DNA of 64,000 nucleotides. Origin: Shinella zoogloeoides (GTDB lineage Bacteria > Pseudomonadota > Alphaproteobacteria > Rhizobiales > Rhizobiaceae). The translations under genes and the position numbers were made by a program. The stretch covers positions 186,001-250,000 of the forward strand of contig NZ_QNUJ01000005.1 in assembly GCF_003574625.1 (NCBI RefSeq), given 5' to 3'. Under the pieces are notes generated by a model. The model searched no databases and was not told where the DNA came from. It saw only the letters and a list, made by a program, of their open reading frames with translations. Shown one piece after another: positions 23,363 through 59,689 of the stretch. Numbering within the stretch: the stretch's first letter is position 1; every line of letters starts with the position of its first letter.

Positions 23363-23664
23363 GCCTCGGGCACTCCATCCACGCGTCCTGTCCGGCAAAA
23401 GTTTATGGAAACGTCGTTAAGTATTTGTTTCAACCCGCGACGTCGCAAACCCGTAAGGAATATGGTCGCAATATGACAAGGGTCGTCGCTCCGGTGCCGG
23501 TGGGTCGAAAGAGCGGGAAAAGCTCCCGGATTTGAAGCCTATCCATATGAGATATCAGGTGAAATAGAGGCCGGAGGTATCGATCTCCATGGTTGTGGCC
23601 TGTCGTCAAATCAAGAGGCCGTGTCGTTTTCCGGCATGCCGTTCGGGCGTAGTTGCGCTTAGAT

Positions 23665-23845
23665 AGGTCTACTCAAGGCGTCACCCTCGGCAGAGGGCGC
23701 GAAAATTGGGAAGCCGGTTGAATTCCGGCGCTGCCCCCGCAACGGTGTTGGAGGCGTGGAGAGGCCGACGGAGGAGGAACCCGGAAGGCGCCGCGACAGT
23801 CCCGAAAGGACGCTCCTCAGCCCGGAAACCAGCCTGGAGGAACGA
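23665..23845 (+). ncRNA. Cobalamin riboswitch
   Basis: The stretch contains the conserved aptamer core: GGGAAGCCGG (23708-23717), the B12 box CCGGCGCTGCCCCCGCAAC (23725-23743) and the 3' part CAGCCCGGAAACCAGCCTG (23818-23836). These match the cobalamin riboswitch consensus in order and spacing. The aptamer ends at GGAGG (23836-23840), a ready-made Shine-Dalgarno, which could be masked when cobalamin binds. It lies in the leader of the Rieske oxygenase gene at 23955, with no other gene between. Ligand binding normally lowers expression of the gene downstream. Confidence 0.93.
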
Positions 23846-23849
23846 TCGT

Positions 23850-23909
23850 GACGGCTGCGGCGGGCGGCCGGGAAGCGTGCAGTTCCGGGCCTGGCGCCCG
23901 GGGGCCGTC
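23850..23909 (+). promoter_or_regulatory. GC-rich hairpin in the riboswitch expression platform
   Basis: GACGGC (23850-23855) pairs with GCCGTC (23904-23909), and CGGGCG (23861-23866) with CGCCCG (23895-23900), forming a long stem between the aptamer and the oxygenase start. There is no T run. It may control read-through or ribosome access to the GAGGA before 23955. Confidence 0.5.
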
Positions 23910-23954
23910 TCCTTCCGTACGCCTCGGCGAATTTGGATATCTGAGGATCCCGGC

Positions 23955-25199
23955 ATGGACATTCGCAGCGACGTGCTCCGCAAGCTCAAGAACCGGCGCG
24001 AAGGCTACAGCCTCGAGCAGGCCTTCTACACCGACCCCGATTACTACAAGCTCGACCTGGAGACGATCTGGTACCGCGACTGGCTGTTCGTCGGCCACGA
24101 TTGCGAGATCCCGAAGGCCGGCAACTATTTCACCGTGCAGGTCGGCGACTATCCCGTCGTCATCACCCGCGACCGCGCTGGCACCGTGCGCGCGCTGCAC
24201 AATGCCTGCCGCCATCGCGGCTCGCGCGTCTGCTCGCAGCACAGGGGCAGCGCCGCCAAGCTCGTCTGTCCCTATCACCAGTGGACCTATGAACTCGACG
24301 GTTCGCTGCTCTTCGCCCGCCACATGGACGAGAATTTCGACAAGAGCGAGCATGGCCTGAAGCCGGTCCATTGCCAGACGGTCGGCGGCTACATCTTCAT
24401 CTGTCTCGCCGAGGAAGCGCCGGACTTCGCGCCCTTCGTCTCGCTCGTCGAGCCCTATATCGCCCGCCACCGTCTCGGCGAGACGAAGATCGCCTTCGAA
24501 AGCACCATCGTCGAGAAGGGCAACTGGAAGCTCGTCTGGGAGAACAACCGCGAGTGCTACCACTGCGCGGCCAACCATCCGGAGCTCTGCCGCACCTATC
24601 CGGAAGCGCCGAGCGCGACCGGCGTGCAGGGCGCGCAGGACGATCCGGAAATCTCCGGCCACTGGGCCAAGTGCGAGGCCGCCGGCCTGCCGAGCCAGTT
24701 CCGCATGTCGCCGACCGGCCAGTTCCGCGCCGCGCGCATGCCGCTCATCCAGGACGCCGAGAGCTACACCATGTCCGGCGCCCGCGCCGTGCAGCGCCCG
24801 CTCTCCAGCGACGTTCTGGAAAGCCATATCGGCGCGCTGCTGCTCTTCCACTATCCGACGACTTGGAACCACGTTCTGGCCGACCATGCCATCACCTTCC
24901 GCGTGCTGCCGCTCGGTCCCGAACTGACCCAGGTCACGACCAAGTGGCTGGTCAACAAGGATGCGGTGGAAGGCGTCGACTACCGTCTCGACGAGCTCAC
25001 CCATGTCTGGACCGAGACCAACGACCAGGACCGCCGGATCGTCGAGGAAAACGCCTTCGGCATCCGCTCCCCGGCCTACGAGCCCGGCCCGTACTCGCCC
25101 GTCGACGAAGGCGGCGTCATGCAGTTCGTCGAATGGTATTCGAACTTCATGGTCGACCGGCTCGACGGCTCGAAGCAGACGCTCTCGCGGGTAGCATGA
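23955..25199 (+). CDS. gbcA: Rieske oxygenase, glycine betaine demethylase-like alpha subunit
   Basis: A 414-residue aromatic-ring-hydroxylase-type oxygenase closest in pattern to GbcA, which demethylates glycine betaine to dimethylglycine with release of formaldehyde. Rieske cluster ligands are Cys85, His87, Cys105 and His108 (CRHRG ... CPYHQW). Catalytic iron ligands are in NRECYHCAANHPEL (His203, His208). The reductase follows one base after the stop. The frame is open upstream into the riboswitch, but GAGGA before ATG 23955 and the family N-terminus set the start. Related stachydrine or carnitine oxygenases are possible alternatives for the substrate. Confidence 0.85.
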   Translation: MDIRSDVLRKLKNRREGYSLEQAFYTDPDYYKLDLETIWYRDWLFVGHDCEIPKAGNYFTVQVGDYPVVITRDRAGTVRALHNACRHRGSRVCSQHRGSAAKLVCPYHQWTYELDGSLLFARHMDENFDKSEHGLKPVHCQTVGGYIFICLAEEAPDFAPFVSLVEPYIARHRLGETKIAFESTIVEKGNWKLVWENNRECYHCAANHPELCRTYPEAPSATGVQGAQDDPEISGHWAKCEAAGLPSQFRMSPTGQFRAARMPLIQDAESYTMSGARAVQRPLSSDVLESHIGALLLFHYPTTWNHVLADHAITFRVLPLGPELTQVTTKWLVNKDAVEGVDYRLDELTHVWTETNDQDRRIVEENAFGIRSPAYEPGPYSPVDEGGVMQFVEWYSNFMVDRLDGSKQTLSRVA

Positions 25200-25200
25200 C

Positions 25201-26301
25201 ATGAGTGCCAGCCACTTCCGCCACTTCGACGAACTCCATCCGTGGAACGACCGGCAGAACCTGCTGGAATGCATCGCCGCCACGGTGGAGACGGCGGACG
25301 TGATGACATTCACCTTCCGCTCCGATCGCGACAACTGGTTCCGGTATCTGCCGGGCCAGTTCGTCACGCTCGAACTGCCGGTCTCGGAAGACGAGCCGGT
25401 AATGCGGACCTATACGCTGTCCTCGACGCCCTCCCGCCCCTATGCCGTCTCCGTGACGGTGAAGGCGCAGAAGAACTCGATCGGCACGCGCTGGATGTTC
25501 GACAATCTGCGCCCCGGCGTGAAGCTGAAGGCCTTCGGGCCGCTCGGCGACTTCTCCTTCGTGCGCCATCCGGGCGAGAAATACCTCTTCATCTCCGCCG
25601 GCTCCGGCATCACGCCGATGATGTCGATGACGCGCTGGATGGCCGATTGTGCGCCGCAGTCCGACGTCGCCTTCGTCACCTGCGCCCGCAAGCCGGAGGA
25701 TCTCCTGTTCAAGGGGGAGCTCGAATATATCGCCGCGCACATGCCGCAGCTCTCGCTCGGCTTCGTCGTCGAGGGACATAACCCGCGCGACGGCTGGCAC
25801 GGGCTGCGCGGCCGCATCGATGCGGCGCGGCTGACGCTGATGGCGCCCGATTTCCGCGAGCGCACCATCTTCTGCTGCGGGCCGGAGCCCTTCATGCGCG
25901 GCGTTCGCGACATGCTGAAGGTCTGCGGCTTCGACATGGAGCGCTACCACGAGGAGAGCTTCCAGCCGGCCGCCGCGCCCGCCCCGGAAGAGATCGCCAT
26001 CCGCGCCGGCGCCGGCGAGGCGGAGGTGGATGCCGACGCGGTCGCCACCATCACCTTCACCATGGCCGGCAAGGAAGCCAAATGCCCACCCGGCCAGACC
26101 ATCCTGCAGACGGCCCGCGCGGCGGGCGTGCGCATCGGCGCGGCCTGCGAGGGCGGCCTGTGCGGCACCTGCCGCGTCATGAAGGTCTCGGGCGAAGTCG
26201 ACATGCGCCACAATGGCGGCATTCTCGATGACGAGATCGAGGAGGGCTATATCCTCGCTTGCTGCTCGCGGCCCATCGGGGATGTCTCCATCGAGGCGTG
26301 A
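25201..26301 (+). CDS. gbcB: Ferredoxin-NAD(P) reductase partner of the Rieske oxygenase (GbcB-like)
   Basis: A 366-residue electron-transfer protein that passes electrons from NAD(P)H to the oxygenase. It has an FAD domain (MRTYTLSSTPSRPY), an NAD-binding domain (GSGITPMMSMTRWM), and a C-terminal plant-type [2Fe-2S] ferredoxin domain with CEGGLCGTC and a later CC pair. The order FAD-NAD-2Fe2S is that of GbcB and of hybrid-cluster-protein reductases. It is adjacent to gbcA and in the same transcript, downstream of the cobalamin riboswitch. Confidence 0.87.
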   Translation: MSASHFRHFDELHPWNDRQNLLECIAATVETADVMTFTFRSDRDNWFRYLPGQFVTLELPVSEDEPVMRTYTLSSTPSRPYAVSVTVKAQKNSIGTRWMFDNLRPGVKLKAFGPLGDFSFVRHPGEKYLFISAGSGITPMMSMTRWMADCAPQSDVAFVTCARKPEDLLFKGELEYIAAHMPQLSLGFVVEGHNPRDGWHGLRGRIDAARLTLMAPDFRERTIFCCGPEPFMRGVRDMLKVCGFDMERYHEESFQPAAAPAPEEIAIRAGAGEAEVDADAVATITFTMAGKEAKCPPGQTILQTARAAGVRIGAACEGGLCGTCRVMKVSGEVDMRHNGGILDDEIEEGYILACCSRPIGDVSIEA

Positions 26302-31475: not shown

Positions 31476-31737
31476 ATGTCAGTCCGTGCGGCGGGGTGAG
31501 GCGCGGCATGAATTCCCTTGAGGCCCTGCCGGTTCCGCTGCGATCAGCGCAACCGTCCAAAACTTTCGCGGAACAATCCACCCGTCCGAAGATTTGCCAA
31601 GAGAAGGCGGGCCGTGTCAACCGGACACGACGGAGATGGAGAACACGGGGATTTTTCCGGTTTCTCCCCGTGGCCGACGAAACGGCAGGCGAGCTCCCAA
31701 CCCGTCCGGCCCGTCTTCGACGGTTCCCAAAACAAAC

Positions 31738-59088: not shown

Positions 59089-59340
59089 GTATCCCCACTT
59101 GGCTGCCCGCGCCCATCCCGGCGGGATGCGAGGTCGGCGAGCCTCCGGCCGAAATGCGGTGGCCGGCATGTTATAAACGATCTTCGAAAACCAGTCCGGC
59201 GAATGTCGTGGCTGTCACAATATTTTCAATAGCAGCCTGCAAAAAACCTCTTGATTACGACAGCGATTCTTCTTATCTCCGCGCTTGCCCAAAGTCGCAC
59301 GTGCCTGTGGGTGTCCGCCGACCCTCGATTTGGTGAGGAT

Positions 59341-59689
59341 CATCGGTAAGGTACCTGGACCTAACCGCTCCAGTCGCTATTCCGGCCAACCGGGAAATGC
59401 GAGGACATCTTGAAGCAACGACGGTGCGGGCCTTTCTGGTGTCTGCCGGCTTTCCATCAGCCGGGGTTACTGAAGAGGCACACCTTCATTGCCGGAAGTG
59501 CGGTCGGGTTTCCCACCAATCCATGGCAGACAAAGCCGAATTGAAGCCTAGGCGGGCTTTGGTTCACCGTTCGCGCATTTGCGCATGCTTGGTTCCGGGG
59601 TCTCCACCGGCTGGTTCCAGAGCGTTGCCGCATCTGCCCTTTGTCCTCTGGGGTTTCCCCGGAGCAACCTGGATATGGGGAATACCGAG
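59341..59689 (+). ncRNA. Structured leader RNA of the decarboxylase gene (speF-type)
   Basis: The 600-base gap before the ornithine/lysine decarboxylase gene holds no supported gene. Near its 3' end it has CCGGCT-ttccatc-AGCCGG (59446-59464), a competing pair CAAAGCC (59531-59537) or AAGCC (59544-59548) with GGCTT(TG) (59555-59561), and a stem CTCTGGGG-ttt-CCCCGGAG (59646-59664) close to the start codon. Alphaproteobacterial ornithine decarboxylase genes are known to carry the speF RNA motif in this position. Assignment is from context and secondary structure, not from a covariance search. Confidence 0.6.

Follow-up and report, generated by a model that had tools for sequence, protein, structure and literature searches.

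The cobalamin riboswitch standing ahead of a GbcAB-like oxygenase and reductase pair in the Rhizobiaceae occurs together with the genes of a corrinoid-dependent demethylation route (mtg genes), the two have been lost together repeatedly, and in Shinella zoogloeoides the switch is present with a damaged aptamer. We consider it probable that these observations have one explanation as a whole, a vitamin-controlled choice between the GbcAB and the corrinoid routes, with the switch decaying in this species. The leader, in Rhizobiaceae and other alphaproteobacteria, would be an OFF riboswitch, both the binding of B12 and the direction of control being what we infer. With plentiful cobalamin the aptamer would bind it and a kissing contact between L5 and L13 would shut the gbcAB messenger, while the corrinoid route (MtgB/MttB with the corrinoid protein MtgC and MtgD) would demethylate betaine and hand the methyl groups to tetrahydrofolate. 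With scarce cobalamin this route would fail, the switch would open and the oxygen-dependent Rieske system GbcAB would take over, the methyl groups then leaving as formaldehyde. This would transfer the metE/metH arrangement to the demethylation of betaine. In S. zoogloeoides the corrinoid route would have been deleted and gbcAB retained, leaving the switch to decay under relaxed selection.

The window, i.e., the whole stretch of 64,000 nucleotides analysed, is part of contig 23 of a genome of 5.38 Mb. A first-pass annotation of its sequence had proposed a cobalamin riboswitch in front of a GbcAB-like pair, to be checked with the corresponding covariance model. This proposal was borne out by cmscan, which gave a full-length match to RF00174 above the gathering cut-off of 31.5 bits, with the gene pair directly downstream (Table 1). 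The start given at first pass (23665) was six bases late. Between the end of the aptamer and the ATG of the gbcA-like gene there are 103 bases. We preferred this ATG (23955) to a TTG at 23706 because it is conserved in every aligned leader; the longer TTG frame, which runs through the aptamer, was rejected as the gene. The window also contains, at 59287-59595 (+), an ar45 sRNA (168.6 bits) with a speF leader immediately behind it (120.8 bits) and, at 31605-31712, the Rhizobiales sRNA Atu_At1 (120.4 bits).

Table 1. Features of the gbcAB-like locus, in positions of the window.
Feature	Position	Strand	Evidence
Cobalamin riboswitch aptamer (RF00174), conserved positions damaged	23659..23851	+	64.8 bits, E 1e-13; 7/79 conserved columns changed
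Segment which we take to be L5, GCTGCCCCCGCAACGGT, intact	23730..23746	+	sequence; leader comparison
Core hairpin with damage, GCCGACGG...CCCGGAAGGC; in most congeners GCCACTGG...GGGAAGGC	23764..23789	+	leader alignment
3' segment which we take to be the "B12 box", GCCCGGAAACCAGCC, intact	23820..23834	+	sequence; leader alignment
P13/L13 hairpin, its loop GCGGCGGGC able to pair with L5; candidate switching element	23852..23870	+	loop motif in 52/55 leaders, covarying stem
Shine-Dalgarno-like GAGGAT	23943..23948	+	sequence
gbcA-like gene, Rieske non-heme iron oxygenase (quaternary-amine demethylase family)	23955..25199	+	NCBIfam, Pfam, solved relatives
gbcB-like gene, FAD/NAD/2Fe-2S reductase, after a 1-base gap and presumably in one operon with gbcA	25201..26301	+	ORFs, NCBIfam, Pfam

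In known cobalamin riboswitches a kissing contact between P13/L13 and L5 forms on ligand binding. The loop of the hairpin that follows the aptamer here can base-pair with the L5 segment (GCCCCCGC), and its motif GCGGYGGGC is found in 52 of 55 leaders, the window's included. The stem covaries at its third pair (GC in 27 leaders, AT in 25) and at its second (CG in 23, TG in 18, TA in 9, unpaired in 2). By analogy, this hairpin would be P13/L13 and play the kissing-loop role. Across leaders the start codon lies 80–164 bases beyond the loop. RNAalifold, run on the leaders whose post-aptamer stretch (with 30 coding bases) was shorter than 190 bases, found the P13 hairpin alone to be conserved. Neither a terminator nor a sequestering fold shared by these leaders came out, and the predicted block may act on translation or on transcription.

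The two products have 414 and 366 residues, with the Pfam domains Rieske and Ring_hydroxyl_A in the first and FAD_binding_6, NAD_binding_1 and Fer2 in the second. The GbcA/GbcB pattern noticed at first pass holds for the gene pair, the oxygenase and reductase families and the domain architecture, but not at the level of the curated equivalog scores. The NCBIfam GbcA model gave 514 bits to the first protein (cut-off 670) and the GbcB model 383 bits to the second (cut-off 500), while ten homologues scanned with the GbcA model gave 354–545 bits, 0/10 reaching the cut-off; for this reason we speak of GbcAB-like proteins. These scores fail to settle the substrate, glycine betaine being the candidate that we favour. 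Alternatively, the same B12-gated choice could concern another quaternary amine (proline betaine, carnitine or gamma-butyrobetaine) with a different MttB-family partner. The GbcA scores, which do not separate the homologues, are compatible with this, as are the nearest solved structures, 3n0q (553 bits) and 3vca/4qup (529 bits), the latter presumably a stachydrine demethylase. However, 3vca is nearly identical to a Sinorhizobium meliloti pSymA protein that has no switch, and the switch-bearing gene of S. meliloti is a different one; being only ~56% identical to the window's protein and devoid of a switch, the pSymA protein was rejected as the gene itself. The partner locus bears on the same alternative. 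Members of the MttB family act on several quaternary amines and use TMA, carnitine and gamma-butyrobetaine (PMC8604678, in the text available), and glycine betaine is for that reason the presumed rather than the proven substrate of the rhizobial MttB partner. Yet the partner locus of congeners resembles one characterized for glycine betaine: in Ruegeria pomeroyi the B12-dependent counterpart is MtgBCD, with MtgB belonging to PF06253, and mtgC and mtgD are required for growth on glycine betaine, as stated in the accessible part of PMC12478193. In a congener (G002) the single MttB gene adjoins genes for a corrinoid protein, DUF1638, an MTHFR paralogue and a pterin-binding methyltransferase, a set that matches the mtg set of R. 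pomeroyi. Taking both sides together, we regard a different amine as distinctly unlikely. A MttB copy ~52 kb from gbcA in genome G003 was also considered as the partner and rejected, since none of the ten neighbours that were scanned belongs to a betaine-related family; the mtg locus, with its corrinoid and MtgD-like proteins, is the better candidate.

The survey of gbcAB leaders across Rhizobiaceae that the first-pass annotation had suggested showed that the switch is widely kept. Within the genus the gene was found in 21/21 genomes, with RF00174 ahead of it in each, and within the family the switch was present in 37 of the 53 genomes with a GbcA orthologue (calls made by the Rfam gathering score; for 16 loci E values as high as 0.05 were admitted). 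At each of the 20 loci L007-L026 RF00174 lies ahead of the gene, with 64.8–118.5 bits, and L028, L030 and L031 have it too. We also built a custom covariance model, R1, from 28 leaders picked among the 44 under 190 bases (56 leaders, 11 set aside; L026 entered 15 bases short at its 5' end). Applied to 20 of the named switch-positive loci, among them Labrys, Rhodospirillales MAGs, Roseibium and Ruegeria, R1 matched every one. It gave no match on G144 or on the leaders of the 15 family genomes without switch and MttB. Chance is excluded as the source of the aptamer match, because all of L007-L026 carry RF00174 and R1 finds matches in Ruegeria, Labrys and Rhodospirillales.

Some loci of this survey deserve separate mention. 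Second cobalamin-riboswitch-like matches to R1 were seen near gbcA at L169:3309-3481 (-) and L183:8590-8764 (+), with 64.6 and 48.3 bits, and a weak one (30.6 bits) at L166:2621-2729 (+), ~1.3 kb ahead of the gbcA of a Hyphomicrobiales MAG that we count as switch-less. A gammaproteobacterial MAG contig (L177) has a gbcA homologue and a switch (132.5 bits), possibly by transfer or misbinning. Two records titled Bacillus subtilis SK6B4 (L157) and Marinicella sp. W31 (L160) have a rhizobial-type gbcA (68% identity) and are probably mislabelled or contaminated, and a S. meliloti record labelled pSymB (L191, CP090106.1), carrying switch and gene, is 3.7 Mb long, which suggests a chromosome and a possibly wrong label.

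The association with the corrinoid route was studied in a family sample of 151 genomes, in which MttB (counted as one family, all subfamilies together) was present in 110 and DUF1638 in 109. GbcA matched 72 of them with E values no higher than 1e-60; in 19 the best match did not exceed 58% identity and was treated as a paralogue, and the remaining 53, with an orthologue of at least 66% identity, include two members of the genus (G000, the window's genome, and G015). Switch and MttB/MtgB (PF06253) were both present in 35 of the 53 and both absent in 15, with the switch alone in two (G000 and G136) and MttB alone in one (G144, L073), the only one of the 53 with MttB, DUF1638 and the gbcA orthologue but without the switch (Fisher p 3.3e-10, kinship ignored). 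DUF1638 splits the 53 genomes identically. Thus 35/37 switch-bearing genomes have the B12-dependent counterpart, and 15/17 genomes with the gene and without MttB have no switch, the other two (G000 and G136) having damaged aptamers. A second sample was made of named genomes, 80 being the best matches listed, with matches of 58–60% identity included. Among these 80 the switch was found by motif scan in 50 (22 confirmed with R1, 28 by motif scan alone), and MttB was present in 50/50 of them. The 30 switch-less genomes among the best 80 listed comprise 21 without MttB (Agrobacterium, Rhizobium ruizarguesonis, R. aethiopicum, R. mongolense, Brucella, Ochrobactrum, Pseudochrobactrum, Martelella and others) and nine with it (Ciceribacter lividus, Methylocapsa sp. 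S129, Mesorhizobium sp. CA8 and six MAGs), seven of the nine lying outside Rhizobiaceae. The two samples overlap (e.g., L107 = G006, L150 = G016) and are therefore not independent.

Such an association could also arise without a functional link, from kinship or from linked deletion, since both traits cluster on the tree and the samples include near relatives. We built a careful tree of GbcA (a gene tree, not a species tree) with 72 rows, the 53 orthologue genomes plus 19 further genus genomes, and each trait changes on it at least 10 times. Eight independent pairs could be drawn through supported branches (six on a quick GbcA tree), in which both traits differed the same way in 6.9 pairs on average, the opposite way in 0.0 and without difference in 1.1 (median p 0.016). 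Against such a by-product speak the number of changes that each trait requires, the supported pairs, which never went opposite ways, the gene staying while the leader alone is lost, and the mtg site and gbcA being on separate contigs (C22 and C23) in the window's own genome. With this evidence a by-product is hardly credible.

The same losses bear on whether gbcAB might belong to the supply side of B12, the conversion of betaine to glycine feeding 5-aminolevulinate, hence the corrin precursor, with cobalamin shutting its own precursor supply by feedback. In the available text, betaine is described in the medium of S. meliloti B12 fermentation (PMC5948670) and cobalamin riboswitches as widely governing synthesis and transport genes (PMC3766115), both of which would fit. 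But feedback of this type predicts no dependence on MttB, and the switch was repeatedly lost with MttB and DUF1638 while other cobalamin riboswitches were kept: the 15 genomes lacking both switch and MttB all retain at least one other cobalamin riboswitch above cut-off, so that the loss is specific to the gbcA leader and B12 sensing was not simply abandoned. We find the supply-side origin very unlikely. The first-pass annotation had read the locus as a switch that turns on oxygen-dependent demethylation when B12 is low, the corrinoid route sufficing otherwise. At the level of the lineage this logic is strongly supported by the comparative data, i.e., the oxygenase would be held down when the B12-dependent route is available. 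It does not hold for the window's own genome.

MttB was found neither in that genome nor in a second genome of the species, and DUF1638 was not found in the former. The site syntenic to the mtg locus, at ~176.3–177.6 kb of C22 (176296-177545), has kept the VWA, sigma-factor, NAGPA and formyltransferase genes at 71–92% protein identity, and searches of three stretches of the genome gave no match to mtgB, mtgC, DUF1638, the PF13769 gene, metF2 or mtgD. The flanking genes and one intervening gene having been kept, the site looks like the piecewise loss of one module. The aptamer has changed at 7 of the 79 columns that are conserved in at least 95% of the other leaders. It lacks the near-invariant core of its relatives, the strings CCACTGG and GGGAAGG, which 50 and 51 of the 56 leaders, respectively, contain, being absent from it. 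With one of two identical leaders removed, 51 of 55 leaders had 0–3 changes in the conserved columns, and the other switch-bearing family genome without MttB (G136) had 18/79. G104 (a degenerate switch with 12 changed columns) and G126 (7 changed) break this pattern of decay because both carry MttB. The damage is most simply read as the outcome of relaxed selection once the partner had been lost, and the switch of the window is probably a decaying relic of one working in relatives. It could be argued that it still functions and controls gbcAB by cobalamin for a reason unrelated to the mtg route, given its score of 64.8 bits, the intact B12 box, L5 and L13, and its presence in both genomes of the species. 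Against this stand the changes in the near-invariant core and the missing partner genes, and we hold a still-working switch to be unlikely.

Besides that of the window, the genome has three further cobalamin riboswitches above cut-off and two weak ones. Judging the ORFs by eye, the three precede a thioesterase with a MetR-like regulator, nrdHIEF-like genes and a btuF-like transporter gene, and one of the weak matches precedes cobU/cobW-like genes. The gbcAB switch thus sits in an otherwise ordinary regulon. Just upstream of the riboswitch that precedes nrdHIEF there are a GbcA paralogue (33% identity) and a metF-like gene, the latter identified by eye (G000:C1:645-3242, L002).

Rodionov et al., in 2003, reportedly named ardX-frdX as unexplained genes of the B12 regulon of alphaproteobacteria. 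These may be the gbcAB-like pair described here, in which case the function and the mtg partner would be the new part; the two names appeared in no relevant paper among those listed by our literature search, which covered few subscription journals. The first-pass annotation had held the arrangement not to be a standard described case, which is correct only in part. In S. meliloti a cobalamin riboswitch ahead of smc00982 was predicted and listed in 2007 (PMC2245857), with a table row in 2008 (PMC2573895), although the accessible text of both gives a prediction only, without function, partner or explanation. SMc00982 is described as "likely encoding a dioxygenase" (PMC2848018) and SMc00981 as a "putative ferredoxin protein" (PMC12542648) in the excerpts available. 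In S. meliloti Ak57 the homologous pair with its switch adjoins genes for threonylcarbamoyl-AMP synthase and a FAD-binding oxidoreductase, and ORFs resembling these two (by eye) lie upstream of the switch in the window. From name, gene order and product, rather than from a comparison of sequences, the smc00982 leader is very probably the same as the one in the window. Among the papers listed by our search, which covered few subscription journals, and as far as their text was accessible, none proposes betaine demethylation as the target of a B12 riboswitch or links it to mtg genes. The GbcAB systems of Pseudomonas and Chromohalobacter are, like the pair in the window, an oxygenase plus a reductase, acting in glycine betaine demethylation. 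The window's pair differs from them in falling below the curated equivalog cut-offs, and riboswitch control goes unmentioned for them in the available part of PMC12478193. MtgBCD of R. pomeroyi is the B12-dependent route, with a counterpart locus in Shinella congeners, but is the partner and not the element found here, and MttB and DUF1638 are missing from the window's genome.

We lean, by a small measure, towards a broader reading, in which a vitamin-gated betaine branch, old in Alphaproteobacteria (Rhizobiaceae, Labrys, Rhodospirillales, Roseibium, Ruegeria), would decide the fate of the methyl groups, methyl-tetrahydrofolate and methionine when B12 is plentiful and formaldehyde when it is scarce. 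It would give a function to a hitherto unexplained member of the B12 regulon, and would have been dismantled repeatedly upon deletion of the corrinoid route, with S. zoogloeoides in the middle of the loss. If true, the use of betaine by soil and marine bacteria would be tied to vitamin supply and oxygen. The riboswitch listed in 2007, to which the accessible text assigns no function, would also gain a candidate one. The repeated joint loss of switch and partner amounts to a natural experiment, of which S. zoogloeoides, beside its congeners, is a concrete decaying example.

The nearest known systems are metE, with metH, and the nrd genes, which are found under a cobalamin riboswitch alongside the B12-dependent nrdJ. 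As in these, RF00174 at gbcAB precedes the gene of a B12-independent enzyme, and a B12-dependent one would be able to perform the same task. The differences are that metE and nrd serve the synthesis of methionine or deoxyribonucleotides, whereas gbcAB would serve a catabolic demethylation, and that the alternative to gbcAB is a multi-protein corrinoid system, the two routes releasing the methyl group in different forms. Isozymes of B12-dependent enzymes are a published category of cobalamin riboswitch targets (PMC3766115; PMC2211319, both from the text available). The gbcAB switch would belong to this known kind, that of metE, and would extend its logic, if the explanation is true, from the synthesis of methionine and deoxyribonucleotides to the breakdown of a common osmolyte.
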